From a virus, in the IMG/VR virus record IMGVR_UViG_3300030419_004621, positions 1 to 27,853 of that record: a stretch of DNA of 27,853 nt; one strand, 5' to 3'. The notes under the pieces are model-generated. The model was not told the DNA's origin, made no database searches, and saw nothing but the letters and a program-made list of their open reading frames with translations. Positions 141 to 18,669 of the stretch are shown here, one piece after another. Position numbers and translations under genes: made by a program. Numbering within the stretch: the stretch's first letter is position 1; every line of letters begins with the position of its first letter.

Positions 141-227
141 GTGTTTAATGTTATAAGAAGGGTTGGTAATTTCTTCTTCTTTATTATACTTGGGAGGGTG
201 CTATTTGCCTTACTGTTTAACAACTAG
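141..227 (+). CDS. 28-residue putative membrane peptide
   Basis: A short GTG-started frame of 28 codons ends at TAG 225-227. GGGAGG at 127-132 sits 8 bases before the start, which is nearly ideal. The peptide has a basic N-terminus (two adjacent Arg near residue 6) followed by about 18 mostly hydrophobic residues, including a run of four Phe. This suggests one membrane span with the N-terminus in the cytoplasm. It lies one base after the previous stop codon, so translational coupling is likely. No family is recognised. Its stop codon overlaps the left arm of the inverted repeat at 226-263. Such tiny membrane peptides are common in T4-like phages, but the short length makes this tentative. Confidence 0.5.
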   Translation: MFNVIRRVGNFFFFIILGRVLFALLFNN

Positions 228-263
228 TTTTCCACAGTTATTGATACTTTTCTGTGGAAAACT
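226..263. repeat. Perfect 12-bp inverted repeat formed by two opposed DnaA-box-like sites
   Basis: AGTTTTCCACAG at 226-237 is exactly complementary to CTGTGGAAAACT at 252-263, with a 14-base AT-rich loop. Each arm contains one TTTTCCACA 9-mer, and the sites face each other with 25-bp spacing. The arrangement could be a cooperative protein-binding site. As RNA it would also be a strong hairpin directly after the stop of the small gene at 141-227. No T-run follows the right arm, so it is not a standard intrinsic terminator. Confidence 0.75.
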
Positions 264-287
264 CTAAGAATTGAGTTAAAAAACGTT

Positions 288-295
288 TATAAATA
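288..295 (+). promoter_or_regulatory. T4-type late promoter motif TATAAATA
   Basis: An exact TATAAATA lies at 288-295. This octamer is the T4 late promoter element, recognised by the phage sigma factor gp55 with the sliding clamp, and T4-like cyanophages use closely related sequences. The nearest downstream gene starts at 568, so a transcript from here would have a leader of about 265 bases across the DnaA-box region. The AT-rich surroundings raise the chance of an accidental match. Confidence 0.4.
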
Positions 296-446
296 GCAAA
301 TTAAATGTATATGAGCGATTTAAACGTTTTCCACAATGTTGTATAAAAGTGGTTGTAATCTGTGGAATAAGTGTTAATTTCCTTGTGATCTTAGCGAGCG
401 TATTATAACACGAACGCCCGTAAGATTGCAACCCCCTCGGTAATAC

Positions 447-474
447 TTTGTAACCCTTAATCGTCCGTTACAAA
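447..474. repeat. Perfect 8-bp inverted repeat
   Basis: TTTGTAAC (447-454) and GTTACAAA (467-474) are exact reverse complements around a 12-base spacer. No T-tract follows, so terminator function is unlikely. It lies 16 bases before the late motif at 490 and about 36 bases before the early promoter -35. It may be an operator or a structural element of the possible origin. Confidence 0.55.
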
Positions 475-489
475 ATATGAACAAACCAG

Positions 490-497
490 TATAAATA
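490..497 (+). promoter_or_regulatory. T4-type late promoter motif TATAAATA
   Basis: A second exact TATAAATA lies at 490-497, about 70 bases before the gene at 568 and just upstream of the sigma-70 promoter at 510-538. If real, the downstream small genes could be read by host-type sigma early and by the phage late sigma afterwards. Confidence 0.45.
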
Positions 498-509
498 ACA
501 CCAATATTC

Positions 510-538
510 TTGACATTTTCCACAGGTGATTCTATAAT
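510..538 (+). promoter_or_regulatory. Consensus sigma-70 (early) promoter with DnaA box in its spacer
   Basis: TTGACA (510-515) and TATAAT (533-538) are both exact consensus, separated by the optimal 17 bp. Transcription should start near 545, giving a leader of about 23 bases for the gene at 568. The first nine bases of the spacer (516-524) are an exact TTTTCCACA. A protein bound there would cover the promoter and compete with RNA polymerase. Confidence 0.85.
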
Positions 539-567
539 ACAAACAGTTACTCCCAGGGTCTAATCCT

Positions 568-1282: not shown

Positions 1283-1389
1283 TATATAAAAAAGATAGAG
1301 ACCCTAACCTACAGACGTGACAAATCGAGATGTATATAAAAAAACCGCGAAAATTTTTCCAGACCCCATAACCTTTCCTATATAAAAAA
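1283..1389. repeat. Three copies of TATATAAAAAA at 46-50 bp spacing
   Basis: TATATAAAAAA occurs exactly at 1283-1293, 1333-1343 and 1379-1389. Between the copies lie related strings, AGACCCTAACCT (1299-1310) and AGACCCCATAACCT (1361-1374), so the array looks like a degenerate tandem repeat of roughly 50 bp. Each copy resembles an extended -10 or TATA element and includes an A-tract that would bend DNA. No good -35 box is found at proper spacing. The last copy ends 14 bases before the ATG at 1404. Confidence 0.6.
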
Positions 1390-1697: not shown

Positions 1698-2486
1698 ATG
1701 GCAAAAGGATTTACTGTTAAAGCCAATGCTCCCAAGAAGAAAGCACCTGATTGGGACTATGATGCTATTAAAGCAAGAATGAAAGGAAAGACAATTGTAT
1801 TTTGTCTTCCAGGTCGTGGATGTTCATTCATATTCCTGAAGAACTTTGTGCAGTTATGCTTTGATATGGTTCAGAATGGAATGTCAATCCAAATTTCACA
1901 GGATTACTCATCTATGGTGAACTTTGCACGTTGTAAGTGTTTAGGTGCAAATGTATTGAGAGGTCCTGATCAGATACCTTGGGATGGAAAACTCAAGTAT
2001 GATTATCAACTATGGATTGACTCGGATATTGTCTTTGATACTAACAAGTTCTGGCAATTATGTGATATGGCAATTCCTGCTCAAGTAGAAGGTGAAGAAG
2101 TAAAAGAAAGAGATATTGTTGGTGGATGGTATGCTACAGAGGATGGACACACAACTTCTGTCGCTCATTGGTTAGATGAAGAAGACTTCCGTAAGAATGG
2201 CGGAGTTATGAATCACGAAACCGTTGAATCCATTGGTAAGCGTCGTAAGCCATTTACAGTAGACTATACTGGTTTTGGTTGGTTATTAATTAAGAACGGC
2301 GTATTTGAACATAAAGAAATGTCTTATCCTTGGTTTGCTCCTAAGATGCAAGTCTTTGAGTCTGGTCAGGTTCAAGATATGTGCGGCGAAGACGTATCCT
2401 TCTGCTTAGATGCAAAAGAAGCAGGATGGGATATCTGGTGCGATCCTCGGATTAGAGTAGGTCACGAAAAAACTCGTATTATTTAA
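1698..2486 (+). CDS. Glycosyltransferase-like protein, GT-A fold type (262 aa)
   Basis: Probably transfers a sugar from a nucleotide-sugar donor; acceptor unknown. After a basic, disordered-looking N-terminus (residues 1-28), a beta strand with FCLPGRG (35-41) is followed by a helix region. Then comes WIDSD at 106-110, whose Asp-Ser-Asp matches the metal-binding DxD motif of GT-A enzymes. GWYATEDG lies in the middle. GEDVSFC at 230-236 supplies the Glu-Asp acidic pair typical of the catalytic end of such folds, and a conserved-looking His is at 256. Length fits a single catalytic domain without membrane anchor. GAAGG lies before ATG 1698. Its own promoter and position upstream of small genes suggest early or middle expression. 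Possible roles are modification of the host envelope or of phage structural proteins; the sequence does not decide. Confidence 0.7.
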   Translation: MAKGFTVKANAPKKKAPDWDYDAIKARMKGKTIVFCLPGRGCSFIFLKNFVQLCFDMVQNGMSIQISQDYSSMVNFARCKCLGANVLRGPDQIPWDGKLKYDYQLWIDSDIVFDTNKFWQLCDMAIPAQVEGEEVKERDIVGGWYATEDGHTTSVAHWLDEEDFRKNGGVMNHETVESIGKRRKPFTVDYTGFGWLLIKNGVFEHKEMSYPWFAPKMQVFESGQVQDMCGEDVSFCLDAKEAGWDIWCDPRIRVGHEKTRII

Positions 2487-3099: not shown

Positions 3100-3241
3100 A
3101 ACTAAGAGTGGAACGTGGGGATCTTTACAGTTTGTAGAGACAATTCCTAAAAAAACTCGCCAAGGACACGGCAAACATACAAAATACGCCGCGAGTTCTC
3201 GTAATGGTGCTAAAAAAAGACCCCGTGGACAAGGAAAATGA
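3089..3241 (+). CDS. Small strongly basic protein (50 aa), cyanophage-type
   Basis: ATG 3089 to TGA 3239-3241, 50 codons. A perfect GGAGGA (3075-3080) lies 8 bases upstream, so expression should be strong. The product is very basic: many Lys and Arg, several His and Gly, almost no acidic residues, ending in a Lys/Arg/Gly-rich tail. This suggests nucleic-acid binding or association with a negatively charged surface. I recall closely similar small basic proteins in marine T4-like cyanophages, annotated only as hypothetical. It overlaps both neighbours (11 bases upstream, ATGA at 3238-3241 downstream). Confidence 0.75.
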   Translation: MPVKTKSGTWGSLQFVETIPKKTRQGHGKHTKYAASSRNGAKKRPRGQGK

Positions 3242-3741
3242 TAAATTATGAAGTCTTTGATGACTTTTTAGATCAACAAGACTTTGATAATCTATCTAAT
3301 ACACTACTTTCTTCCGAATTTCCACTATTTTTACAAAAAAGTATCAATTCTTACAACAAAAAGGGGATTTACTTCACTTATGTTTTTAAGCATTGGGATA
3401 AAGATGGCATAAATTGCAATAATAACCTCTTTAATCTCCTTAAACCCGTCTTAACCAAGTTAAATTGTAAAAAATTACATAGAGCACAACTAAATTTACA
3501 TCCAAAGACATTTTTTAAGAGGTATCACGCATATCATCGTGATCATCCACTACCTCATAAAGGATGTCTTCTTTATTTGAACACTAATAATGGTAATACA
3601 ATTATAAAAAACGGAATTATTGGCAAAAAATTCCAATCAGTTGCTAATCGTGCTTTAATTTTCGATCCTTCAATAGTACATAAGAGCACAACTTGTACAG
3701 ATATGGATTTTAGAGCTGTATTAGTGATAAATTACTCCTAA
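3238..3741 (+). CDS. 2-oxoglutarate/Fe(II)-dependent oxygenase-like protein (167 aa)
   Basis: Expected to use Fe(II), O2 and 2-oxoglutarate to hydroxylate or otherwise oxidise an unknown substrate. The metal triad is visible as His100-Arg-Asp102 (HxD) on one strand and His148 in IVHKS. Arg159 lies 11 residues later, where this superfamily places the residue that binds the 2-oxoglutarate carboxylate. Between them are the typical strands LLYLN (111-115) and ALIFDP (139-144). Length, about 170 residues, fits a minimal double-stranded beta-helix enzyme. AAGGA (3231-3235) precedes the ATG, which overlaps the previous stop. Such enzymes are frequent in cyanomyoviruses, with unproven substrates; baseplate or tail proteins encoded downstream are one possibility. 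Confidence 0.7.
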   Translation: MINYEVFDDFLDQQDFDNLSNTLLSSEFPLFLQKSINSYNKKGIYFTYVFKHWDKDGINCNNNLFNLLKPVLTKLNCKKLHRAQLNLHPKTFFKRYHAYHRDHPLPHKGCLLYLNTNNGNTIIKNGIIGKKFQSVANRALIFDPSIVHKSTTCTDMDFRAVLVINYS

Positions 3742-3962: not shown

Positions 3963-4364
3963 GTGCCTCTAGAACGGGTTAGTCCAGGTTTCAAAGATAT
4001 TAGTATGACTTTTCAGGCAAATCCCCTGAATTTAGATCTTATTGGGCTTAAAAATGAAAATGCAATTGCTCGTTCTGTAAGAAATATTGTATTTACACTT
4101 CCAGGAGAGCGATTTTTTAATGAAAATTTTGGATCTAGAATTTCTGCTTCTCTTTTTGAAAATCTTGATGATATAACAGCAAATATTATTGTTGATGAAA
4201 TTACAGAATCAATTGATAACTTTGAACCCAGAGTTGAATTAATTGATGTAGAAGCATTTCCTGATTTTGATAATAATTCTTTTGATGTAATTATAAGATA
4301 TGACATCATAGGAGCAGATGTTCCTCCACAAGAACTTCAATTCGCCTTGCAATCAACAAGATAA
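3963..4364 (+). CDS. 25: Baseplate wedge/sheath-initiator protein gp25 (133 aa)
   Basis: Homologue of T4 gp25, the small lysozyme-fold-like protein at the inner baseplate that nucleates sheath polymerisation, related to TssE of type VI secretion systems. The length (133) matches T4 gp25 (132). Visible family marks are PGER at 47-50, the following NFGSR at 55-59, and the EPR motif at 88-90 followed by a hydrophobic strand. The start is GTG 3963: the upstream in-frame sequence gives no better candidate, and the next in-frame ATG at 4005 would remove 14 residues that look family-conserved. There is no Shine-Dalgarno sequence. The stop TAA (4362-4364) is followed directly by the gp6 ATG. Confidence 0.93.
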   Translation: MPLERVSPGFKDISMTFQANPLNLDLIGLKNENAIARSVRNIVFTLPGERFFNENFGSRISASLFENLDDITANIIVDEITESIDNFEPRVELIDVEAFPDFDNNSFDVIIRYDIIGADVPPQELQFALQSTR

Positions 4365-6290
4365 ATGCCATTAGTCAATTTTTCAAACCTTGATTTTGAT
4401 CAGGTTAAAACGTCACTTAAAGATTATTTAAAGGCAAATTCCACCTTTACTGACTATGATTTTGAAGGATCTAATATTTCTTCTATAATTGATCTTTTAG
4501 CATACAATACTTACATTACTTCATACAATGCCAACATGGTATCTAATGAAGTTTTTATTGATAGTGCTACTTTAAGAGAAAATGTCGTCTCTTTGGCAAG
4601 AAATATTGGATATTTACCAAAATCTAGAAAGGCAGCAAGTGCAACTATAAGTTTTTTCGTTGATTGTACTAATATTGTCCCAACTCCTGCATCAATAACC
4701 CTTAATAAAGGTCCTGTTACATCAACTTCGGGTACTTTTGGCAATCAATCGTTCATTTTTAGTATTGTAAGTGATATAACAGTCCCTGTTGTAGATGGAA
4801 TTGCTAATTTTGATGAAATTACTGTTTATCAAGGGTCTCTTTTAACATCTAATTTCACTTATAGTGTTAGAACACCAAATCAGAAGTTTATTTTACCAAA
4901 TTCGGGAATTGACACCTCTTTAATTAGTGTAAATGTAAGAGGAACCGAACAATCCACTACTAAAGTTAATTACGCAGTTCAAGATAGTCTTTTTAACATT
5001 GATGGAGATTCTAAAGTCTATTATTTACAAGAAATTGAAGATGAAAGGTATCAATTAATATTTGGTGATGGTATTTTTGGAAAAGCACTTGAAGAAGGTA
5101 ATTTTATCACTGCAGATTATATTGTATGTAATGGAGATAGTGCAAATGGCGTAAATCAGTTTGAATTTGCAGGAAGACTGTCATATGTTAGAAATGCTTC
5201 GGATTATTCTGTTACTTCTGGTATTTCTTTAATTACTACCGACGTAGGATCAAGAGGAGGCGAAACAATTGAGTCAGTGGACTCTATTAAGAAGTTTGCA
5301 CCTCGAATTTATGCTTCTCAGAACCGTGCATTAACTGCAAATGATTATGAGACACTAATTCCAGCAAAAATTTATCCAGAAACAGAATCTATTTCAGTTT
5401 TTGGTGGTGAGGAGTTAATTCCACCTCAATATGGAAAAGTTTTTATTAGTATTAAACCAAAAACAGGTGATTTCTTACCTAATCTCATAAAAGAGAATAT
5501 TAGGATGAAATTGAAGAAATATGCTGTTGCTGGTATCGTACCTGAAATTCTAGATCTAAAATATCTTTATATTGAAGTTGATTCGAAGATTTATTATAAT
5601 AGTAATCTTGCTCCAACTGCTGCAGCAATTTCAAGCGTAGTTTCGGCAAATGCTCTTAAGTATTCCGAATCTTCTGAAATGAATAAGTATGGTGCAAGAT
5701 TTAAATACAGTAAATTCTTAAATATTATCGATCAAAGTGATGAAGCGGTAACTTCTAATATTACTACAGTCAATATGAGAAGGGATTTGAGAGTAGCATT
5801 AAATACTTATGCGGAATATTCAATTGGATTTGGAAATAAATTCCATATTAGAAGTATGGATGGTTATAATATTAAATCCACTTCTTTTAGAATAAGTGGA
5901 GTTAGTGATGAGGTTTATATTTCAGATATTCCTAATACTAATAGAACTGACGGATCTCTCTTCCTTTTCACACTTCCTTCTCCATCTTCAACTGATCCAA
6001 CAATTGTTAGAAGAAATATTGGAACCATTAATTATGATAAGGGAATTATAACCATTAATCCCATTAATATTGTATCTGGGAAATTAAAAGATGGTCAAAC
6101 CATTGTTGAATTGTCGGTATGTCCATCATCTAATGATGTTATCGGATTACAGGATTTATATTTGCAACTAGATATTAGTACAAGTAATTTTGAGACTGTT
6201 GTAGATGAAATTTCTTCTGGATTGGATCCATCTGCATCTGAATACGTTGTTACTTCAAGTTATGCAAACGGGAACCTTGTAAGATCTTAA
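4365..6290 (+). CDS. 6: Baseplate wedge protein gp6 (641 aa)
   Basis: Homologue of T4 gp6 (660 aa), the wedge component whose dimers form the continuous ring around the hub, related to the Baseplate_J family. Visible marks include the N-terminal region with NFSNLDFDQV near residue 5 and a helix-rich domain (about 10-100), FGDGIFGK at 233-240 followed by the strand that leads to CNGDSANG, and FAPRIYASQNRALTANDYE starting at 311, which is the most characteristic segment. The C-terminal third is beta-rich. ATG 4365 touches the gp25 stop without a gap, and the next gene starts one base after its stop, so gp25, gp6 and the giant protein should be made from one mRNA. Confidence 0.92.
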   Translation: MPLVNFSNLDFDQVKTSLKDYLKANSTFTDYDFEGSNISSIIDLLAYNTYITSYNANMVSNEVFIDSATLRENVVSLARNIGYLPKSRKAASATISFFVDCTNIVPTPASITLNKGPVTSTSGTFGNQSFIFSIVSDITVPVVDGIANFDEITVYQGSLLTSNFTYSVRTPNQKFILPNSGIDTSLISVNVRGTEQSTTKVNYAVQDSLFNIDGDSKVYYLQEIEDERYQLIFGDGIFGKALEEGNFITADYIVCNGDSANGVNQFEFAGRLSYVRNASDYSVTSGISLITTDVGSRGGETIESVDSIKKFAPRIYASQNRALTANDYETLIPAKIYPETESISVFGGEELIPPQYGKVFISIKPKTGDFLPNLIKENIRMKLKKYAVAGIVPEILDLKYLYIEVDSKIYYNSNLAPTAAAISSVVSANALKYSESSEMNKYGARFKYSKFLNIIDQSDEAVTSNITTVNMRRDLRVALNTYAEYSIGFGNKFHIRSMDGYNIKSTSFRISGVSDEVYISDIPNTNRTDGSLFLFTLPSPSSTDPTIVRRNIGTINYDKGIITINPINIVSGKLKDGQTIVELSVCPSSNDVIGLQDLYLQLDISTSNFETVVDEISSGLDPSASEYVVTSSYANGNLVRS

Positions 6291-6291
6291 G

Positions 6292-9200
6292 ATGGCAGAA
6301 AAGAGAATACAATTTAGTAACATAGTTCAGAATCAGCTTCCTGCCTTCACGAAGACTGAGTTTCCTTTAGTTTCTGATTTTTTAAAGCAATATTACCTTG
6401 GACAGGAATTTCAAGGTGGTCCTATTGATTTAATTCAGAATATTGATCAATATGTAAAAATTGCAGAGCAAACTAATTTAACTGAAGCAGTTGAATTGTC
6501 TTATGCTGTTGATACTTTTACTGATGTCATTCCTGTTGACATGGTAGAGAATCCTGCAGGAACTTATGGATTTCCTGATTCTTATGGATTGTTAAAAATT
6601 GACAATGAGATTATTACATATACAGGAACTGCAACCACTTGTTTTACTGGTTGTGTGCGCGGATTTTGCGGTATAACCTCATATAAAGCAGAGAATAACC
6701 CAGATGTACTAAAGTTTAGTTCAACGACCTCACAGGAGCACGTAGCGGGGTCTAAGATAGAGAATTTAAGTTGTCTCTTTCTTAAAGAATTTTTACTTAA
6801 GACAAAACATCAACTTTTACCTGGTTTAGAGAATAGAAAATTACATAAAGATCTAAATCAAGATCTTTTTATAAAACAAGCAAAAGATTTTTATTTAAGT
6901 AAGGGTACAGATAAATCTTTTGAAATTTTATTTAAAGCATTATATAATGAAGATGTAAGAATTATAAAACCTAGAGATTTTCTCTTTACTCCTTCAAATG
7001 CCAATTATAGAATTACAAAGGACTTTGTAGTTGAATCTATTGAAGGTGAAGGTAATCCGGTAGATCTTGAGCAATCTACTTTATTCCAAGATGTATTTCA
7101 GTATGGAAATTATGAAAAAGCATATGCTCCTATTACTTCAGTAGAACCTATTAATACTGGAGAGACTGGTATAGGGCAAACATTTTATAAACTTAGTATT
7201 GATGCTGGATATGATAGGGACGTTAGGGTTGATGGATCAATATATGGTAAATTTAAGGTTCATCCAAAAACCAGGGTAATAGGGCAAGTATCTGCTGGAA
7301 ATACTTTTATTGATGTTGATTCCACAGTTGGTTTCCCTACTAGTGGTGAATTATATGCCAATTATAGTGATGGGTCAGTAGGAATTGTTTCTTATAGCTC
7401 TAAAAATACAACCCAATTTTTTGAGTGTACTAATATATCTTCACTTATTGATGATGCTACTAATATTGGAATTAATACTTATGTTTATGGAAGTTCTTTT
7501 GTAGATAGCACTAAAAATGTTAAAGTAAGAATTAATGCAGTATTAGAAGATTTTGAATCTCCTGAAAATGCGGTAGAATTTGAAAAAAATGATACTGCTC
7601 AAATTAAAACTTTAGGAATTTCTGACGGTAGTTTTAAAGGAAAAAATTGGTTCTATAATATTTCACCAATTTATAAAATGAGGATTATTCGCCTCATTGA
7701 TAGCTCAGATTGGACTTATCAAGTTGCATTAAATGTAGATCATTGTTTTGTTGTAGGAGATCTCTGTTCTGTACTACTAGGTACTGATGTTAGACAAACT
7801 TCTCTTGTAATTAAAGTTAATTCGGATCAATCTCTTGAAATTAAGGGTCAGGGACAACTTATTGATCAACCCGAAAACACTTATCATCTTAAGAGACTTG
7901 TTTTAAAGACAGAATCTAATAATTTTCCAGATTCTTCAATTTATTCGACTAATGTACAGAATGTTTATAAGAAAGGAGATGATTACTTAGTTGCTTCTGC
8001 TTCTATTCCTTCTTATAATGCTCAACCACTTGATGTTTATGGACAAACAGTTACTTTCTCTGGAACTTTTATTGGGTCAGAATTTTTAATTAATCCATTA
8101 ACTGAGGATCATGGATTCTATACTGGAGATGCTGTTTATTATTCTCCAGAAAGAATAACTGAAGAATATTATGATGCTTTTGGAAATAAAAAGAGTAGGG
8201 TAATTAATGGACCTGCATTAATTACAGAAGGACTTTATTTTATTAAAAGAGTTAGTAATTCAAGAATAAAACTTGCTACTAGTAGAACAAATCTTTCTAA
8301 TGAAACTTATGTTACTCTTACAGAAGATACTACAGTTTCAAAGAGTAGAATAGAACCTTACGATTTCAGATTTAAAACTTTACAGTCACAAAATCTTTTA
8401 AGAGAGATTTCTCCTCCAGAAGAAGATGATAATAATATTGTTCCTACGGCACCTGGTTTTACTGGTATCTTAATAAATGGTGTTGAGATTTTAAATTATA
8501 AAGCTGGAGATGTTATTAAATACGGGCAACTTGATGAAATTGAAGTTAGTAGTCCCGGATCAGATTATGATGTAATTAATCCTCCACTTCTTCATATTTC
8601 AGATAATGTTGGAACAGGTGCAACTGGATTTGCTGCTGTTGAGGGATCTTTATCAGCACTTAGGATTTTAAGTCCAGGTTTTGATTATGAAGAGACTCCT
8701 ACGGTAACAATTAGTGGTGGTAATGGTAAAGGTGCAAAAGTTGATGTAAATATGAAGCAAATTAATCATTCAGTTGATTTCTTTGCTGATGCTAATATTC
8801 ATGGTGGTCAAACTGCTGCTTGGGTTAGTCTTACAGATAATACTATTGGATTTAATACTTATCATAAATTCAGAAATTCTGAACAAGTAATTTATGAAAC
8901 TTATGGCCAAACTCCAATTGGAGGAATTAGTACCAATTCGAAGTATTTCATTACCCCAGTAAATAACACCACAATTAAACTTCACTCAACAGAAGCAGAA
9001 GCATTTGCTGGAATTAATACTATCTCTTTAACATCTCATGGTGTTGGAAAACAATCTATGAGAGCAGTTAATAAAAAGTTTGTAGTAGATGTTCTTAATG
9101 TAATTAATGGTGGATCTGGTTATGCAAATAAAAAGAGAAGTACTCCTACTGAAGCGGGAAGTGGAATTAATACTGCGGTAAATTATGTTACTATTCCTAA

Positions 9201-12200
9201 TCACGGATATAATTCTGGTGAGATAGTTCAATATACTGCTGAAGGGACTCCTCTTGGTGGACTTACTAGTGGATCTGATTATTATTTGACAAAAATTAAT
9301 AATGATAGATTTAAATTATCTCAAATTGGAGCAGGATCTACTCTAAAAACATTTTTCTATGATACAGAACAATATATTAATTTTACTTCGGTTGGTGTAG
9401 GCACCCATACTTTTAATTACCAACCCATTACTGTTAATATAACAGGAAAAGTTGGAATATCCTCAATAGCAGGGGATACTTTCCAATGTGAAGTTCAACC
9501 TATTATTAGAGGTCATATAGATTCAGTTCATGTATCTAAAAATGGTGTTGGATATGGATCATCTGAGATTATTAATTTTGATAGACAACCTAATGTTACA
9601 TTAATTGCCGGATCTGGTGCACAATTAAAACCAATTATCAATGATGGAGCAATTACAGAAGTATTAGTACAAGCTACTGGAATAAACTATAATTCACCTC
9701 CAGATATAATAATTGATGGGGATGGAGAAGGAGCAGTACTTACACCTGTTCTAGAAGATAATACAATAACTTCTATTAAAGTAATTGAAAAGGGTGAAGG
9801 ATATACGGCGGCAAATACTAGTATTACTGTTCTTGTTCCTGGAGAAGGAGCAGAGTTTAGAGCAGACATTCAAAATTGGAGATTAAATTTATTCCAAAGA
9901 CATATTGATAATTTTAGTACTGATGATGGAATTATTGCTGATCAATTTAATATAGATCGAGGACTTCAATATTCTCATTTATATGCACCTAGAAAACTAA
10001 GAGAAGCAGTATTTGGTACTGATCAAGAAGGAAATACTTTATATGGTAAGAGTGATTTACAAAGGGTTAATAGTTTAGAAGTAGCATCTACAGACCATTC
10101 ACCAATAATTGGTTGGGCATATGATGGAAATCCCATTTATGGTCCATATGGTTATTCTACCCAGACGGGTGGTGTAGTGGCACAGATGAAGTCTGGTTAT
10201 AGCGTTGATTTAAAGGCAAGTAGACCACCTCAAAATGAATTTCCCGTAGGATTCTTTATTGAAGACTTTAGTTATAAAAAAGTAAGTGACCAAACAATTC
10301 TTGATGAAAATAATGGAAGATTCTGTATCACTCCAGAATATCCAAATGGAACCTATGCTTACTTTGCAACTATTGAAGAAGGAAATGCAGATTCTGCAGG
10401 ACCATTTGCAGGATATAAGAGACCAAAATTCCCCTATATGGTTGGTGAGAGTTATCATTCTACTCCTAATAAATTTAATTTTAGTTCTTATTCTAATCAA
10501 GAACAATATCTATTAGATGATACTGGATGGTCTAGAAATACTTATTATTATAATTTCATCGAGGGTAATTTAGAGTATCCATATGTTTATATTCCTGATA
10601 ATTTAAAACAAACTGTTGATGTTACAACTGGAAAGCCTGGTGCTATTAATGAAATAGGAATTACAACATCTGGTAATTTCTATAAGGTTGGAGATAAAGT
10701 ATTATTTGATAATGCTGGTACTCAGGGAACTAGAGCTGCTGCTAAAGTTTCTTGGATTGATGGTAAGCCATTAAGTAATATAAGTGTTGCTACAAGTAGT
10801 ATAACTGGTGTTGAAGTATATCCTGGAACTCAAAAAGGTGAATATATTCTTTGGTCTACAAAACCTCATCAATTCCAAACTAATGATCTTGTTAAAGTTT
10901 CTGGATTATCTACAACATCTTCTAAAATTGGTGGTGATTATAAGGTCGGAATTACAACTGATACTTTTGCATTAACTGGTGTTGGATCTACCCCTACAGG
11001 TATTGGGTCAATTCCTCATACTGGAATAGTTACTTATTTTGATGTTAGTGGAAATCTTGGATATCCTCACATTAAAGTAAATGATATTCTCAGTATAAAT
11101 TCTGAAAAAATTCAAGTCTTAAATATTGAACCAGAATTTTCACGAATAAGAGCACTTAGAGCTGTTGAAGGTACAACAGGAGCAGCACATACTGTAACTA
11201 CAGTTCTTTATGAAAATCCAAGAAAATTAATTGTAAATTCTGGGTTTAGGACTACTTATGATTGTAAGGTAAATACTCAAATTTATTTTAATCCAAATGA
11301 ATCTGTTGCAGTAGGAACTGCTTCTGGTGTTGGTATTGGTACAACTATTCAATTCTATTCACAACCAGGTTATCCTAATCCAATTGGTGCAGGAGAAACA
11401 CAAGTCTTTATTCCAACAAAAACAATTTGGATTAAAAATCATGGTTTGGTAACAGGAGATAAATTAACATATTCACCTAATGTTGGTGATGGGGTAGCAA
11501 TCCATACTGGAGGAGGTCTAGATGTTCAAAATGCTGGTGGTGGTATATCAACTTTAACTGATGGGCAAACTGTCTATGCTTATAAGCACAGTGATAATTT
11601 AATTGGAATTGCTACCGTTCATGTTGGACTTAATACTGCTGGTGATGGAATAGTTGGTATTGCAACTACATTTAGAAGTTCTTCAACTTTATTCTTCTCT
11701 GGAATTGGAACAGGAACTTGGCATAGTTTTAAAACTAATTATGCACCAATTACTGCAGAAATTAGTAGAAATCTTGTAACAGTTTCTACGGGAAGCAGTC
11801 ACGGATTAGAAAGTGGTGATACTGCTGATATTAATGTAAGTCCAGGGAATATTTCAACAACCTTTACTGTTAAGTATAATGATTATAATAGGGTTATTAT
11901 AGTTGATCCAAAAGATTTTGTTGCAGGTGGAGTAAATACCACAACAAATGCTATTAGCATTACTAATCATGGTTTTGTAACAGGTCAAAAAATTATTCAC
12001 ACCGCATCTGTTCCTTGTGGCGGTCTTTCAAATGATGGAATATATTATGTGGTTAGAATTGATGATAATACAATAAAATTATCAAATAATTCTTATAATT
12101 CCAATTTACTAAAACCAGTTATTGTTGGAATTACTAGTGTTTCTGCAGGAACAATTAATCCTATAAATCCACCAGTAAGGGCATATAAAGATCAACAGGC

Positions 12201-15200
12201 TATATTTGATCTTTCAGATTCTTCTTTAGGTTATGTTAGTCAGGGAACATCATATCCTGCATTCCAATTAAATTTCTATAGTGATAAAAATCTTCTTAAA
12301 ATATGGGATACTAATCAGCTTACGCAAAACTTTAATGTTGTAAGATCTGGAGATGCTGGAGTAGATTCAGATGCTAAAGTTACTGTCGAAGTTAATAAGG
12401 ATATACCTGGAACTTTATATTATACCTTAGATCCTTTATATGAAGGTACTCTTCCTCCTGTTAAAGAACAAATAACCAGAAATGATGCTGTTATTTCTGC
12501 AAATGAATTTCAGATTGATGATAGTGGTTATAATGGAAAACAAGTTATTTCGGTTGGCGCAACAAATACATTTACTTACACATTAACTAAGTTACCAGAA
12601 AAGGGATCTTATTTGTCAACAGATTCTGTTCTTAAGTATAAAACAGATTCTGCAACAGCATCTGGACCTATAGCAGATATTACTGTATTTGATGGAGGTC
12701 AGAATTATTATTCTCTTCCTGGTATTACTACTATTAGTTCCACTGATGGAGTTAATGCTGAAGTTAAGATTTCTAGTAAAGATATAGGTAAAATTGGAAA
12801 AGTAAAAATTAAAGATATTGGATATAATTTCCCTTCTGACAATACTCTTAGACCTAGTGTTAATTTACCACAAAGTGTCACTATTGAGGAGATGGCACGT
12901 ATTGAGTCTATTGGAATAAGTTCTGTTGGAAGAGGTTATAATGTAGCTCCTACACTTTTAGTGTTTGATGGAATAACCAATAAGAGAGATGAGGATATTA
13001 AACTTGAATATAAACTTGGAGAACAGCAAGTAACTATTCTTAAGGAATCTAAGGGAATTAATAATGTTCCACCAATTATTCTTCCTACGGATAATACTAA
13101 TGGTGTAGGAATTAAAACTGTTGGATTTAATACAACTACAAAAGATGTATCTGTTACTTTATCTGTTGGATTTAGTACTGATGGTTCATTCCCATTTACA
13201 GTTGGAGATAAGGTATTAGTTGAAAATGTTAGCGTTGGTGTTGGTACAACTGCTAGAGGATATAATTCTGCTGAATATAATTATAAATTATTCGAATTAA
13301 CTGAAGTTGATTCAAATATTGGTGGTTTGGGGATTGTCACTTTTAGTCTTTATGATTATTATAATGATTTGGATCCTAGTGTAACTCCAGGTCAATATGA
13401 TGCTGTTAATTCTGTTGGAAGAATTATACCAGAGAAATATTTCCCAATATTTGATGTTAAGTTAGGAATAAATGATTTCCTTGAGGGTGAGGTTGTTAAA
13501 TCAGATTCTGCTACTGGTACTGTTGAAACTTGGAATAAAAAGCAAGGAGTTTTAAAGATTGCAAGTGGCGAGAATTTTAAAGTTAATGATGTTATTAGAG
13601 GACAAACTTCAGGAACTCAAGGAGTTGCTGCTTCTATAACTTCATATGAATCCAAATTTAAATTGGGTCCATTCTCTGAGGTAGAGAAGGGATGGGAAAC
13701 TGATTCTGGTATTCTTAATACCAATATGCAGAGAATACAAGATAGTTTCTATTATCAAAACTTCTCTTATGCATTAAGATCTAAAGTGTCTATGGATACT
13801 TGGGATGATGTTGTAAGTGCATTAAATCATACTTTAGGTCATATTAAGTTCTCTGATATGCAAGTGGATTCATTGAATGAAAATTCAATGAGAGTGGGTT
13901 TATCAACTGAAGTAACTTCATATGAAATTGTAAACCATTTAGTTGGACATGGTAATTTAAATACAGTATATGATTTTGATTTGGTAAAAGAAAATTCTTT
14001 AAATGCTGCAGGAAGAGTTATTTCTGATGAAATAATATTCAGTAATAGAATTCTTTTCGATTATGATGAATCTGTTGGTAATAGGGTTCTTTCAATTGAT
14101 GATATTGCAAGTCAGTTTAATAGTAACCCAAGGTCAACACCATTTAGCATTGCTGCTGAATTTGATCTTGCCACTGCACGAGCAGTAAAATATTTTGTTT
14201 TTGTTAAAGATAACAGATATATTCAACATAGACAACTTCAGGTTGTTGATTTAGTTCATAATAATTCTGACATTTATTTACAACAATATGGTCGGATAGA
14301 AAGTGTTTATAACTTAGGATCATTTGATGCTAACATTCTGGGAGGTACTGGAAGGTTACTTTGGTATCCAATAGATTATAAGGTAAATGATTATAACCTT
14401 ACTGCAATTTCTTATCATATAGATGATGATTTATTGAGTGTAGGTAGTACTAGTTTTGGTGTTACAAGAATAGATTCTACTAGTACAAATGTTGCTACTG
14501 CAGTTACTACTGGACATAATATTGTAAGTATTGGTGTTACTTATCGCTCTGCTAAGATTTTAGTTAATATTAGAGGAGATAATGGAGTAGCAAGTGGTGG
14601 TGAATTTGAATTTGAAGAAATGAATCTCATTCATAATGGAACTACTGTTGATGTTTCAGAATGGGGTAATCTTCTTACTGAAGTTGAACCTACTGATGAT
14701 GCGGGAGCAGGTCTTGGAACTTATTCTGCTTATATTGATGGTGCTAATGTAAAACTTGATTGGTTCCCTGATCAAACACATGCTGGAATTGGAACCACTG
14801 CAGTTGTTAATACTATTCAAGTTGCAATGGCAGCAACTGGTAGTTTAGGTGCACAAGGAACAATTGATTTAAAACATGGAAGATTCCAGTCAACTCCTAC
14901 AGGAATAGCATCTACAGCATCTCCTTCGGTAAATGTAATTGGAGAATATGTTACTCAAGCTTCTTCTACTGTAGATGGATATGATGCTGCTTATTTTGTA
15001 GTACAACTTACAGATACAAATCAAACAGGAACATCTGAGATGTTTGAGGGTCTTGTTATCGATGATTATCGTCTTGATGAAGATTCAGGTGATAGTTATG
15101 AAACTTGGTATGGAGAAGTAGGTACTTCTGGAATAGGAACTGTAGGAACTAGAGTAGTTTCTGATAGTACTGCTGGAATTGCAACCGTACAGTTATTATG

Positions 15201-18200
15201 CACTCCTACTGCCAATATTGCAGTTCAGGCTGATGTTTATATGAATGCAATAAAAGTTACTGATGATGATAAGGATAATATTTCCTTTAATAATTCATCT
15301 ATAATGACAGAATATGGATTGTACGAAGGAACAGAGAATAGTCTTAAGAAATCCTTTATGCTAACGCATAAAACTGAAAGAGTTTTTGAAAGAAGTTTTG
15401 AAGGAGATAATTCTGATATTGTAAGTGTTTCTGCCAATACAATTAAGGTTCCAAATCACTTCTTTGTTACTGGTGAAAAAATTAGTTATGTTCATGAAGG
15501 AACTGGTACTTATGGCGCAGTTGGAATTGCTGAAACTGATGGATTTGTTGGAATTGGATCAACTACTCTTCTACCTTCCCATGCATATGTCGTTAAAGTT
15601 AATGAGGATTTAATTAAATTATCAGAAACTGCTGAAAAATCTTTAAGAAAGATTCCTGAAGTAGTAGATATAACAAGTGTTGGTATCGGTACTTCTCATA
15701 GATTTGTTTCTACTAACCCTAATGCAAAAGTTATCCTTAGTCTGGATAATATTATTCAATCACCTGTTGTATCTACAGCAGTTACAACTCAATTAGCTAA
15801 ATCTGTAACTACTACTGATGATTTAATTTACTTTACTGGAATCACTTCATTTACAGGTTCTGATTTATTCAGAGTTAATAATGAAATTATGAAGATTGAA
15901 TCTGTTGGTGTTGGTAGCACTAATGTATTCAGAGTTAAGAGACAATGGTTAGGGACATCTCTTGCAGGACATTCTACTAATGCCCTAGTAACTAAAGTTA
16001 GTGGTAATTATAATATTATTGATAATACGCTTAATTTTGCTGAGGCTCCATATGGTAATATACCTTTAAGTAGTACTACCAATCCACCTGATTCTAGAGA
16101 TTGGGTTGGTGTAGCAACAGGATCACACTTTAATGGAAGAGTATTCCTACGTTCTGGAGTAGAAGGAGCATCTAACGAAACATATTATCAAAATTATGTT
16201 TTTGATGATCTTTCTGCTGAATTTAATGGTGTTACAGATAATTTTAATCTTACTGGCAGTAATCACATTTACGGTGAAGGGTCTAATATAACAGGAATTG
16301 CTACTGAAAATGCTGTAATTTTAATTAATGATGTATTCCAAGGACCTAGTAAAAATTATAATTTAGGGCAAATATCAGGAATTACTAGTATTACATTTAC
16401 TGGTACTGCATCATCCGTATCTTCGGATATTAATCTTTCAACTCTTCCTATTGGTGGAGTCATTCTATCTGTAGGATCAACTGAAGGACACGGATATCAA
16501 CCATTAGTTGCTGCAGGAGGAACTGCAGTTGTATCAACCGCAGGAACTATTCAATCAGTTAGTATTGGATATAGTGGATCTGGATATAGATCTGGTATTG
16601 GTCAAACTGTTAATGTTGGCGTTGGAACAACAAGTTTAGGAGTTCCTAATACCCAATGGGTAGGAACTGCTACTATTGGATCTAATGGTACTTTGACTGG
16701 TGTAGCAATTACAATTTCGAAAGGTGGATATAGTCAAACAGATCCTCCATTTGTTATTATTGATTCTCCACTTTCATATACTAATATTCCTTTAGAATAT
16801 AGTTCTGAAAGTGTATCTGGAGTTGGAACTAATGCAACTGTTGATATTGTTGTTGGTCAAGGATCAAGTGTAATTGATTTCAGTCTTAATTGTACTGGAA
16901 GTGCTTATCGTGAAGGTGAAATATTAACCATTCCTTATGGTGGAACAACAGGTATTCCGACTGATACAAGTACTTATTATAATGAATTCCAGTTAACAGT
17001 TGATGAACAATTTAGTGATAAATTTAGTGGATGGTCAGTTGGAGAATTAGAAGCTTTAGATGATTGGAATAGTCAATTTGATGGAGAGACTGTTAGTTTC
17101 CAATTAAGAAGAGCAGGTGATTTAGTTTCTATTAGAACATCTAAAGGATCTAAAATCGACATTGAATATGTTCTTTTAGTCTTTATTAATGATATTCTTC
17201 AAGTTCCTAATAAGGGATATACATTTGATGGTGGTAGCGTTGTTACAATGACTGAGGCACCTAAAGTGGGAGATACCTCAAAGGTAATCTTCTACAAAGG
17301 AAGTGGCTCAGCTGACGTTAAATCTAAAGAAATTCTTGAGACTGTTAAACGAGGTGATGATTTACTTATTAATCATGGATCACAACCTGCTTATCTACAG
17401 GAAACTTCAAGAGGTGTTACAACAGTAACTTCTACAAGTACAGTCAAAACTATACCATACTTTGGTCCTGGAAATACTCAAGATGAAAATCTTGAAAGAC
17501 CTGTTGTTTGGACTAGGCAGACTGAAGATAAAATTATAAACGAAGAACCAGTAGGAAAGGATAGAGAACTGTATAATGCTAACATTAGTCCAGGTTCTTA
17601 TATTATTAAATCCGTTGGTATTGGTTCTACAGTAATTTTTGTAGAAAGTGTAAGACCCTTCTTTGATCCTGACAATGAGATGTCAGATTCCACTAAACGT
17701 GATACTCTTCAGAATAATATTACTATTATTTCACAAGATTCTAAGGTTGGTGCTGTTGCGACATGTCTTGTAACAACTGCTGGTATTGTTACGTCTGTAG
17801 ATATTACTGATGGTGGTTCTGGATATACTTCTGCACCAAGTATAGTATTTGGTCAAACTGGTGTTGGGACTACCGCACTTGGTAGATCCTTTATTAATCC
17901 TGTTGGTGTTGTTACTGGAATTGAAATTACTAATAGTGGAACAGAGTACTTACAAACAGATGTTCCATCTTGTCTTATTCAACCACCTGCATTAATTGCA
18001 GAATCTGATGAGGTTGGTTCCTATATTGGGGATTCTGGACATATTGTTGGATTTGGAACAGAAGGTGGTGCTGCATCAGTTGATAAGAGTTTGATCTTTG
18101 ATATACATATTCCATATGATTCTTATTTGAGGAATGCCAATATTGTTGGTACTGCTATTACTCTAAGTAGTATTGGTGTTGGTGATTATTTTGTAATTAG

Positions 18201-18669
18201 GAATACTTATGTTGGATTTGCTGATACGTCTATTAGGTCATTAGATATTGCTGGTGATACTATTGGTATTGGAACAATTTTTGTTGATAACATTTATCAG
18301 GTAGATACTGCTGCAAATCATATAACAGGTGCTCTTACTGGAATAGGAACCACTACTTTCAGAAGGATTACTGGAAAAATTGCTGGTGTATCCACTATTA
18401 CATTTGCTGCAACTAAAGCAGGATTTAGTAGTGAAACTTATGACTTCTCTTCTGCTGGTCAAGGTGCAGGTTCGGGATGGAGTGGAGCATTTACTACTTC
18501 TTATTATATCGGCGACTTTAGTTGGGGTAAAATTAACCTTGCATCTAGAAATGAATCTAATGAATATAATGCATATACTCGTGATGGAGTTACTGGAATT
18601 TCAACTGGTGGATTCGTTAGAAGGACTAAACCTCTTAAGTCCAAAAATTATGATGGACAAATCATCTAA
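6292..18669 (+). CDS. Giant modular baseplate/tail structural protein (4125 aa), gp7-position, with YHYH-type domain
   Basis: One uninterrupted frame of 12.4 kb. It occupies the place of T4 gene 7 (between 6 and 8), so the N-terminal part may be the wedge gp7 equivalent; T4 gp7 is only 1,032 residues, and similarity is not obvious by eye. Residues 1-240 form a helix-containing domain that looks like the docking end. From about 340 on the chain is almost all beta. One module has the pattern Gly-x-Gly-Tyr, Pro-Pro, beta strand and Gly-x-Gly-Ala, in at least a dozen copies. A second module begins NHG-x-x-TG and ends in a strand like DNTIKL. Residues 1274-1288 (GWAYDGNPIYGPYGY) mark a YHYH-type domain. 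DSFYYQNFSYALRSKV starts at 2484. The C-terminal 500 residues include INDILQVPNKGY and FVESVRPFFDPDNE. No signal peptide or membrane span. Similar giant proteins occur in marine cyanomyoviruses as virion structural proteins. Confidence 0.85.
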   Translation: MAEKRIQFSNIVQNQLPAFTKTEFPLVSDFLKQYYLGQEFQGGPIDLIQNIDQYVKIAEQTNLTEAVELSYAVDTFTDVIPVDMVENPAGTYGFPDSYGLLKIDNEIITYTGTATTCFTGCVRGFCGITSYKAENNPDVLKFSSTTSQEHVAGSKIENLSCLFLKEFLLKTKHQLLPGLENRKLHKDLNQDLFIKQAKDFYLSKGTDKSFEILFKALYNEDVRIIKPRDFLFTPSNANYRITKDFVVESIEGEGNPVDLEQSTLFQDVFQYGNYEKAYAPITSVEPINTGETGIGQTFYKLSIDAGYDRDVRVDGSIYGKFKVHPKTRVIGQVSAGNTFIDVDSTVGFPTSGELYANYSDGSVGIVSYSSKNTTQFFECTNISSLIDDATNIGINTYVYGSSFVDSTKNVKVRINAVLEDFESPENAVEFEKNDTAQIKTLGISDGSFKGKNWFYNISPIYKMRIIRLIDSSDWTYQVALNVDHCFVVGDLCSVLLGTDVRQTSLVIKVNSDQSLEIKGQGQLIDQPENTYHLKRLVLKTESNNFPDSSIYSTNVQNVYKKGDDYLVASASIPSYNAQPLDVYGQTVTFSGTFIGSEFLINPLTEDHGFYTGDAVYYSPERITEEYYDAFGNKKSRVINGPALITEGLYFIKRVSNSRIKLATSRTNLSNETYVTLTEDTTVSKSRIEPYDFRFKTLQSQNLLREISPPEEDDNNIVPTAPGFTGILINGVEILNYKAGDVIKYGQLDEIEVSSPGSDYDVINPPLLHISDNVGTGATGFAAVEGSLSALRILSPGFDYEETPTVTISGGNGKGAKVDVNMKQINHSVDFFADANIHGGQTAAWVSLTDNTIGFNTYHKFRNSEQVIYETYGQTPIGGISTNSKYFITPVNNTTIKLHSTEAEAFAGINTISLTSHGVGKQSMRAVNKKFVVDVLNVINGGSGYANKKRSTPTEAGSGINTAVNYVTIPNHGYNSGEIVQYTAEGTPLGGLTSGSDYYLTKINNDRFKLSQIGAGSTLKTFFYDTEQYINFTSVGVGTHTFNYQPITVNITGKVGISSIAGDTFQCEVQPIIRGHIDSVHVSKNGVGYGSSEIINFDRQPNVTLIAGSGAQLKPIINDGAITEVLVQATGINYNSPPDIIIDGDGEGAVLTPVLEDNTITSIKVIEKGEGYTAANTSITVLVPGEGAEFRADIQNWRLNLFQRHIDNFSTDDGIIADQFNIDRGLQYSHLYAPRKLREAVFGTDQEGNTLYGKSDLQRVNSLEVASTDHSPIIGWAYDGNPIYGPYGYSTQTGGVVAQMKSGYSVDLKASRPPQNEFPVGFFIEDFSYKKVSDQTILDENNGRFCITPEYPNGTYAYFATIEEGNADSAGPFAGYKRPKFPYMVGESYHSTPNKFNFSSYSNQEQYLLDDTGWSRNTYYYNFIEGNLEYPYVYIPDNLKQTVDVTTGKPGAINEIGITTSGNFYKVGDKVLFDNAGTQGTRAAAKVSWIDGKPLSNISVATSSITGVEVYPGTQKGEYILWSTKPHQFQTNDLVKVSGLSTTSSKIGGDYKVGITTDTFALTGVGSTPTGIGSIPHTGIVTYFDVSGNLGYPHIKVNDILSINSEKIQVLNIEPEFSRIRALRAVEGTTGAAHTVTTVLYENPRKLIVNSGFRTTYDCKVNTQIYFNPNESVAVGTASGVGIGTTIQFYSQPGYPNPIGAGETQVFIPTKTIWIKNHGLVTGDKLTYSPNVGDGVAIHTGGGLDVQNAGGGISTLTDGQTVYAYKHSDNLIGIATVHVGLNTAGDGIVGIATTFRSSSTLFFSGIGTGTWHSFKTNYAPITAEISRNLVTVSTGSSHGLESGDTADINVSPGNISTTFTVKYNDYNRVIIVDPKDFVAGGVNTTTNAISITNHGFVTGQKIIHTASVPCGGLSNDGIYYVVRIDDNTIKLSNNSYNSNLLKPVIVGITSVSAGTINPINPPVRAYKDQQAIFDLSDSSLGYVSQGTSYPAFQLNFYSDKNLLKIWDTNQLTQNFNVVRSGDAGVDSDAKVTVEVNKDIPGTLYYTLDPLYEGTLPPVKEQITRNDAVISANEFQIDDSGYNGKQVISVGATNTFTYTLTKLPEKGSYLSTDSVLKYKTDSATASGPIADITVFDGGQNYYSLPGITTISSTDGVNAEVKISSKDIGKIGKVKIKDIGYNFPSDNTLRPSVNLPQSVTIEEMARIESIGISSVGRGYNVAPTLLVFDGITNKRDEDIKLEYKLGEQQVTILKESKGINNVPPIILPTDNTNGVGIKTVGFNTTTKDVSVTLSVGFSTDGSFPFTVGDKVLVENVSVGVGTTARGYNSAEYNYKLFELTEVDSNIGGLGIVTFSLYDYYNDLDPSVTPGQYDAVNSVGRIIPEKYFPIFDVKLGINDFLEGEVVKSDSATGTVETWNKKQGVLKIASGENFKVNDVIRGQTSGTQGVAASITSYESKFKLGPFSEVEKGWETDSGILNTNMQRIQDSFYYQNFSYALRSKVSMDTWDDVVSALNHTLGHIKFSDMQVDSLNENSMRVGLSTEVTSYEIVNHLVGHGNLNTVYDFDLVKENSLNAAGRVISDEIIFSNRILFDYDESVGNRVLSIDDIASQFNSNPRSTPFSIAAEFDLATARAVKYFVFVKDNRYIQHRQLQVVDLVHNNSDIYLQQYGRIESVYNLGSFDANILGGTGRLLWYPIDYKVNDYNLTAISYHIDDDLLSVGSTSFGVTRIDSTSTNVATAVTTGHNIVSIGVTYRSAKILVNIRGDNGVASGGEFEFEEMNLIHNGTTVDVSEWGNLLTEVEPTDDAGAGLGTYSAYIDGANVKLDWFPDQTHAGIGTTAVVNTIQVAMAATGSLGAQGTIDLKHGRFQSTPTGIASTASPSVNVIGEYVTQASSTVDGYDAAYFVVQLTDTNQTGTSEMFEGLVIDDYRLDEDSGDSYETWYGEVGTSGIGTVGTRVVSDSTAGIATVQLLCTPTANIAVQADVYMNAIKVTDDDKDNISFNNSSIMTEYGLYEGTENSLKKSFMLTHKTERVFERSFEGDNSDIVSVSANTIKVPNHFFVTGEKISYVHEGTGTYGAVGIAETDGFVGIGSTTLLPSHAYVVKVNEDLIKLSETAEKSLRKIPEVVDITSVGIGTSHRFVSTNPNAKVILSLDNIIQSPVVSTAVTTQLAKSVTTTDDLIYFTGITSFTGSDLFRVNNEIMKIESVGVGSTNVFRVKRQWLGTSLAGHSTNALVTKVSGNYNIIDNTLNFAEAPYGNIPLSSTTNPPDSRDWVGVATGSHFNGRVFLRSGVEGASNETYYQNYVFDDLSAEFNGVTDNFNLTGSNHIYGEGSNITGIATENAVILINDVFQGPSKNYNLGQISGITSITFTGTASSVSSDINLSTLPIGGVILSVGSTEGHGYQPLVAAGGTAVVSTAGTIQSVSIGYSGSGYRSGIGQTVNVGVGTTSLGVPNTQWVGTATIGSNGTLTGVAITISKGGYSQTDPPFVIIDSPLSYTNIPLEYSSESVSGVGTNATVDIVVGQGSSVIDFSLNCTGSAYREGEILTIPYGGTTGIPTDTSTYYNEFQLTVDEQFSDKFSGWSVGELEALDDWNSQFDGETVSFQLRRAGDLVSIRTSKGSKIDIEYVLLVFINDILQVPNKGYTFDGGSVVTMTEAPKVGDTSKVIFYKGSGSADVKSKEILETVKRGDDLLINHGSQPAYLQETSRGVTTVTSTSTVKTIPYFGPGNTQDENLERPVVWTRQTEDKIINEEPVGKDRELYNANISPGSYIIKSVGIGSTVIFVESVRPFFDPDNEMSDSTKRDTLQNNITIISQDSKVGAVATCLVTTAGIVTSVDITDGGSGYTSAPSIVFGQTGVGTTALGRSFINPVGVVTGIEITNSGTEYLQTDVPSCLIQPPALIAESDEVGSYIGDSGHIVGFGTEGGAASVDKSLIFDIHIPYDSYLRNANIVGTAITLSSIGVGDYFVIRNTYVGFADTSIRSLDIAGDTIGIGTIFVDNIYQVDTAANHITGALTGIGTTTFRRITGKIAGVSTITFAATKAGFSSETYDFSSAGQGAGSGWSGAFTTSYYIGDFSWGKINLASRNESNEYNAYTRDGVTGISTGGFVRRTKPLKSKNYDGQII
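8108..15490 (+). repeat. NHG-x-x-TG module repeats within the giant gene
   Basis: Recurring protein module with an opening like DHGFYTGD, NHGYNSGE, NHGLVTGDK, SHGLESGD, NHGFVTGQK or NHFFVTGEK at about 8108, 9196, 11437, 11797, 11965 and 15454. In several copies a YYL/YVV strand and a closing strand of type NTIKL follow. Two copies are nearly identical as DNA: 11437-11456 and 11965-11984 match at 19 of 20 bases. This suggests growth by duplication, with selection for the beta pattern. Confidence 0.65.
8533..17990 (+). repeat. GxGY / PP / GxGA beta-module repeats within the giant gene
   Basis: At least a dozen copies of a roughly 30-45 residue beta module. Each has a strand, a Gly-x-Gly-Tyr or Gly-x-x-Tyr turn, often Pro-Pro, a strand such as VTISG or IIIDG, then Gly-x-Gly-Ala and another strand. 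Copies are seen near 8540, 8660, 9100, 9530, 9660, 9780, 12670, 12800, 12910, 16555, 16700, 17800 and 17920. They come in clusters of two or three in a row, separated by other domains, which fits a long rod or shell of stacked beta units. The boundaries are by eye. Confidence 0.65.
10090..10260 (+). other. YHYH-type domain signature inside the giant protein
   Basis: Codons for GWAYDGNPIYGPYGY (residues 1274-1288, from 10111) match the core of the YHYH domain family (DG-x-PIYGP). The family is found in secreted or surface proteins of unknown function and repeatedly in giant cyanophage structural proteins. The aromatic and Gly-rich stretch could be a carbohydrate or ligand-binding site, but this is not established. 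Confidence 0.7.

Follow-up and report, generated by a model that had tools for sequence, protein, structure and literature searches.

A helically phased array of cyanobacterial DnaA boxes recurs at a syntenic place in T4-like cyanophages (Kyanoviridae), together with a conserved sequence block and a predicted early promoter. We read the three as a conserved control region of the family, whose most likely function is that of a phage origin of replication comparable to T4 oriE, with a probability of roughly 45%. The region would comprise an array of high-affinity host DnaA boxes, a block of ~40–60 bp and an early host sigma-70 promoter, to which some members of the family add a late one. According to a review, a theta origin has been predicted for Syn9 only, and where replication starts in other T4-like cyanophages is not known (PMC2984593). 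A family-wide, syntenic and helically phased array offers a precise place for origin tests in cultured phages. A search of the open-access literature (subscription papers lay outside it) found no prior description of DnaA boxes in cyanophages.

The box cluster in the window

The stretch analysed here, referred to as the window, is a 27,853-bp (27.9-kb) genome fragment of a T4-like cyanophage, as seen from gp25, gp6, gp7 and other baseplate genes; because it is a fragment, whole-genome box counts were taken from relatives. It contains four exact copies of TTTTCCACA, the 9-mer named as the DnaA box of cyanobacteria (PMC4674748), and no fifth exact copy anywhere in its length (Table 1). Only 0.45 copies (sd 0.64) are expected, and four were reached in none of 100 dinucleotide shuffles of the window. 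One-mismatch copies across the whole window number 13 against 13.0 expected, which is the level of chance, and the signal of the cluster thus resides in the exact boxes. The initial annotation had singled out the four copies and the near copy at 361 on the minus strand, and no other cluster of this kind exists in the window. The site matching the near copy is an exact box in the nearest relatives (L019, L021, L215 and L275), which also keep the 34-bp spacing to the box at 327.

The boxes had also been placed outside any confident gene, which holds: they occupy the gap between the TAG of a 28-codon ORF and the ATG at 568, and the minus-strand ORFs that span the region (276–431 and 374–523) are without support. 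The AT-rich stretch and the hairpin described beside the boxes are likewise real. The former, a candidate unwinding region, is richer in AT than the window as a whole (Table 1), with a family average of 63–68%. The latter is a 12-bp perfect inverted repeat (226–237/252–263), which is nothing more than boxes 1 and 2 standing head to head. An Rfam search returned no match.

Table 1. Features of the window, by position and strand.
Feature	Position	Strand	Remarks
DnaA box 1	228–236	+	Exact TTTTCCACA; immediately 3' of the TAG (225–227) of the 28-codon ORF
DnaA box 2	253–261	−	Exact TTTTCCACA; faces box 1, start-to-start 25 bp
AT-rich stretch	262–326		75% AT against 66% in the window; between boxes 2 and 3
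Late-promoter match	288–295	+	TATAAATA; cyanophage/T4 late promoter NATAAATA (motif: PMC2984593)
DnaA box 3	327–335	+	Exact TTTTCCACA
Near box	361–369	−	TATTCCACA; one mismatch, 34 bp from box 3
Conserved block	381–419	+	TTGTGATCTTAGCGAGCGTATTATAACACG; never more than one copy in a complete genome examined; found across the family; adjoins the box array
Second late-promoter match	490–497	+	TATAAATA; position retained in relatives
Perfect sigma-70 promoter, early type	510–538	+	TTGACA-17-TATAAT; sequence match
DnaA box 5	516–524	+	Exact TTTTCCACA; between the two hexamers of the early promoter (17-bp spacer)
ORF, 57 aa	568–741	+	phrog_12516 (unknown function); first gene after the promoter
Second motif	1303–1313	+	CCTAACCTACA; at most one per complete genome, array-linked
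Marker gene	1698–2486	+	T4-GC 102, phrog_1574; annotated as glycosyltransferase in some relatives
gp25 and gp6 (baseplate wedge)	3963–6290	+	Conserved downstream flank

Conservation and spacing in Kyanoviridae

With the marker gene as bait, the best 80 IMG/VR matches were fetched. When five isolates and the window are added to these, the sequence upstream of the marker gene (163 kb) contains 72 exact boxes and that downstream of it (398 kb) one. A Gp96 alignment (PF23790, Kyano_Gp96), a bait independent of both the marker gene and the boxes, gave a best 80 loci, 77 of them non-redundant. The 126 exact boxes in these 77 loci rank the 9-mer first among 1260 distinct letter arrangements (median 8), the runner-up, at 67, consisting of coding-type repeats, and nearly all of them fall between −2.5 and +2.5 kb around Gp96. 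Where a Gp96 locus had enough flank, a box was present in 24 of 27 cases and a box pair within 60 bp in 15. In box-pair scans of all viral contigs, cyanomyoviruses, recognised by flanking genes or the block, made up 120 of 213 loci among the matches listed. Some of the module statistics given below take in loci that were found through their boxes; the Gp96- and marker-gene-based counts are free of this bias.

The array is located near the Gp96 gene, upstream of gp25–gp6, and complete genomes of 174–252 kb each hold 0–8 exact boxes. Boxes are grouped at this place in S-SM2, P-TIM68, S-PM2, Syn9, Syn1, P-SSM7, S-SM1, Syn19 and S-SKS1; the genome coordinate of the array is 52.6 kb in Syn9, 19.2 kb in S-PM2, 58.7 kb in Syn1 and 46.0 kb in P-SSM7. 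The S-SKS1 array combines TTTTCCACA with two copies of TTATCCACA at exact 21-bp steps (TTTT/TTAT/TTAT-CCACA). The bacterial consensus has W where these copies differ, and the exchange leaves the phase intact, which counts in favour of DnaA boxes; in a count of TTWTCCACA, TTATCCACA outside this array occurs as single copies dispersed over the genomes. S-SCSM1 has its sole exact box at the array locus, with a near box 12 bp off. No exact box group was found in Bellamy, SynMITS9220M01, P-SSM2, P-SSM4, P-HM2, S-CRM01 or S-SRM01, nor in Pelagibacter phage HTVC008M, T4 or P-SSP7. With several isolates lacking an exact array, two of them while retaining the block, the boxes cannot be essential to all members. 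The concern that the 9-mer might be equally common elsewhere is answered by its rarity away from the array in the genomes of relatives. Conservation at the syntenic place stands for most kin, which keep the cluster, and fails for SynMITS9220M01 and Bellamy, which lost it despite the same flanking genes. When the clustering of 9-mers was compared within each of six genomes, coding repeats dominated and the DnaA box was not the top 9-mer in any of them, so that it stands out through synteny only.

Spacing within the arrays follows the helical repeat. Across 114 non-redundant modules, neighbours on the same strand are 11–12, 20–22 or 42–43 bp apart and almost never 13–19 or 23–30 bp, while those on opposite strands are separated by 13–14, 23–25 or 33–35 bp. 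The Rayleigh R at 10.5 bp is 0.86 for the same strand (n = 93) and 0.83 for opposite strands (n = 82), values whose significance is inflated by shared descent, and the rule is common to arrays of differing composition. Such phasing indicates a protein-binding array and fits cooperative binding on one face of the helix, not an RNA hairpin.

Directly adjoining the array is a previously unnoticed conserved block with the core TTGTnnTCTTAGCrnGC. A profile search of 400 sequences gave 157 matches in 156 of them and never more than one in a complete genome: S-SM2, S-PM2, Syn9, Syn1 and P-SSM7 have one each, and P-TIM68 has none. Most exact boxes are situated 0–100 bp ahead of the block. It persists without exact boxes in Bellamy (L390, 13316–13379) and SynMITS9220M01 (L396, 9595–9657) and may therefore act independently of them; host dnaN regions contain no copy. 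A sigma-70 promoter is found 100–150 bp past the block start in 43% of the 114 modules, against 0–2% in upstream bins, and in part of the family late-promoter matches (TATAAATA) precede it by a short distance. The main array is usually situated 150–250 bp upstream of the −35 hexamer. A box falls within the TTGACA–TATAAT spacer in the window (box 516) and in one relative (L247), and overlaps the late-promoter motif in two others (L086 and L232); overlap of boxes with the promoter is not family-wide, being restricted to part of the window's kin.

Host DnaA and the function of the array

Identification of the 9-mer with the cyanobacterial DnaA box, as first proposed from the window, and its occurrence beyond chance are strongly supported by Kyanoviridae synteny, helical phasing and enrichment in host oriC. 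In 59 genomes of Cyanobiaceae, the 450 bp preceding dnaN contain 36 exact copies of TTTTCCACA versus 0.6 expected, most of them in genomes that are AT-rich (Prochlorococcus-like), and these regions also carry the forms ATTT-, AATT-, TATT- and GTTT-CCACA. Six host genomes hold 5 to 25 exact boxes each. Phage boxes are at consensus, whereas those of host oriC are often degenerate. Within the phage clusters, substitutions are tolerated at positions 1–3 and are absent or nearly so at positions 4, 8 and 9. The near-box profiles of phage and host show no significant correlation (Spearman 0.27, permutation p 0.08), and the match to the host box is consequently support rather than proof. DnaA domain IV (PF08299) is absent from 23 phage records. 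Judged from sequence, host DnaA very probably binds the array, and we infer that binding in the cell would be of high affinity.

A CTA repeat (CTACTACTA), which we take to be the DnaA-trio, the bacterial unwinding element, is present upstream of dnaN in 43 of the 59 Cyanobiaceae regions (L477, L478, L498–L555), often directly after a DnaA box, so that the DnaA-trio of these hosts looks standard. It was found beside none of 458 phage boxes, and CTACTACTA occurs anywhere in the module in one of 114 cases. A GC-skew turning point at the array, which the initial annotation had proposed for comparison, is not seen in six complete genomes. In three of these the detrended maximum precedes the array by 8–13 kb, in the others it is nowhere close to it, and GC skew was set aside as an origin test.

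T4 oriE is driven by an early promoter and has evenly spaced repeats (PMC3016281); its annotated position, 79355, precedes gene 6 by 1.7 kb. The cyanophage array resembles it in lying upstream of gp6, in keeping evenly spaced repeats at a syntenic place and in having an early sigma-70 promoter, assigned in the cyanophages by sequence match alone. In contrast to the cyanophage boxes, the oriE repeats lie inside gene 5, are 24 bp apart and are unrelated to DnaA boxes, and T4 iterons were rejected as homologues because the sequences are unrelated. Whereas oriE is a known origin, the cyanophage array is likened to it by position, promoter type and repeats, and its replication activity is putative. 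At the chromosomal oriC of S. elongatus, Cyanothece 51142 and Anabaena, TTTTCCACA boxes stand beside dnaN (PMC4674748). The phage array shares with these the same 9-mer, its clustering, an intergenic location and AT-rich surroundings; unlike them, it is carried by a virus, keeps an 11–12/21/42-bp phase, is not beside dnaN or dnaA, and lacks both a DnaA-trio and a GC-skew turn. Plasmid and temperate-phage origins such as those of P1, pSC101 and R6K combine DnaA boxes with iterons and their own Rep protein, with host DnaA as a helper. A helper role for host DnaA at an extrachromosomal origin is likewise proposed for the cyanophages, but the array differs from those origins, which have a Rep protein and iterons of their own; the present analysis identified no Rep for the array.

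In the proposed mechanism, host DnaA, bound cooperatively to the array, would shape or unwind the AT-rich DNA, and the early-promoter transcript would provide a primer or R-loop on which the helicase, loader and primase of the phage itself would assemble; we infer that replication would start at the array. T4-type replisomes normally need no DnaA, and cyanophages carry gp59-type loaders. A bolder form of the proposal, which we advance tentatively and with some doubt, is that these strictly lytic phages have a single origin licensed by host DnaA without a DnaA-trio, so that a T4-type replisome would come under host cell-cycle and circadian control. The array would link infection to the cell-cycle state of the host and offer a natural system in which DnaA binding is separated from DnaA-trio unwinding.

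Other accounts of the array concern both what binds it and what it does. Were the repeats bound not by DnaA but by some other, unknown protein of phage or host that prefers TTTTCCACA, the uncorrelated near-box profiles and the absent DnaA-trio would be accommodated, but this is very improbable in view of the exact identity to the cyanobacterial box (PMC4674748), the enrichment of the same 9-mer in host oriC and the phase-preserving swap of T and A at the W position. An RNA hairpin or terminator in place of a DNA-binding array is scarcely tenable. Boxes 1 and 2 do form a perfect inverted repeat and the strand folds better than its shuffles (z −3.9), yet many relatives (L078, L201 and L070) have only direct repeats in the same helical phase, which largely refutes this account, and a terminator scan of the window found none at the boxes.

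Array-bound host DnaA might instead activate or repress the early promoter, linking early expression to the DnaA state of the host with no start of replication. The coupling of array and block to the sigma-70 promoter, the boxes within the promoter spacer or on the late-promoter motif, and the absence of a DnaA-trio, as expected for a regulatory site, agree with such control; the main array is, however, far from the −35 hexamer for direct action by DnaA, and boxes in the promoter are limited to some of the window's kin, so that we regard promoter control as unlikely. E. coli datA and DARS, the DnaA titration and reactivation loci, are clusters of DnaA-binding boxes away from oriC; they are chromosomal and require other host factors such as IHF. 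The cyanophage cluster, with its putative DnaA binding, similarly lies away from oriC, and unlike these loci it is linked to a phage early promoter. As a putative datA-like decoy it would titrate host DnaA and halt host initiation, with an effect that grows with phage copies. Consensus phage boxes facing degenerate host ones, the few exact boxes per host genome and the missing DnaA-trio are consistent with titration. Fixed position, helical phase, adjacent block and promoter are all conserved, although a decoy would require none of the four, and one entering phage genome supplies only 2 to 5 boxes; we consider a decoy decidedly unlikely. The origin reading thus leads over promoter control and decoy as a prediction. 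As to the origin or decoy initially suggested, where the array lies and how it is tied to the block and the early promoter speak for an origin or control region rather than for a free-floating decoy, and the missing DnaA-trio and GC-skew turn count against an origin.

Further observations in the window and its relatives

Of six complete genomes, four have a single copy of the second motif, CCTAACCTACA (in fuller form CCCTAACCTACAGAGGTGACAA), always within ~1 kb of the box array (S-SM2 58851, Syn9 53505, P-SSM7 46552 and P-TIM68 58337); the motif is also present in 127 fetched loci. Three perfect TTGACA-17-TATAAT promoters lie inside 1.2 kb of the window (510, 1161 and 1646), that at 1161 overlapping a terminator-like stem (1149–1175). 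The 28-codon ORF (141–227), which ends right before box 1, possibly encodes a small membrane peptide; by eye, a similar reading is present in L019 and L275. In the S-PM2 record (NC_006820), tRNA-Asn and tRNA-Leu are annotated on top of the box cluster (19177–19333); ARAGORN detects no tRNA there, and the coordinates look wrong.

A 167-aa ORF (3238–3741) matches phrog_274, 'DNA endonuclease V' (6.7e-38), and has no Pfam match. Homologues of T4 denV are absent from cyanophages according to a review (PMC2984593), and the name may be loose. In the position of gp7, the baseplate wedge initiator, the window has a single ORF of 4125 aa (6292–18669), far longer than T4 gp7, and similar giants are present in S-SM2 and P-TIM68.
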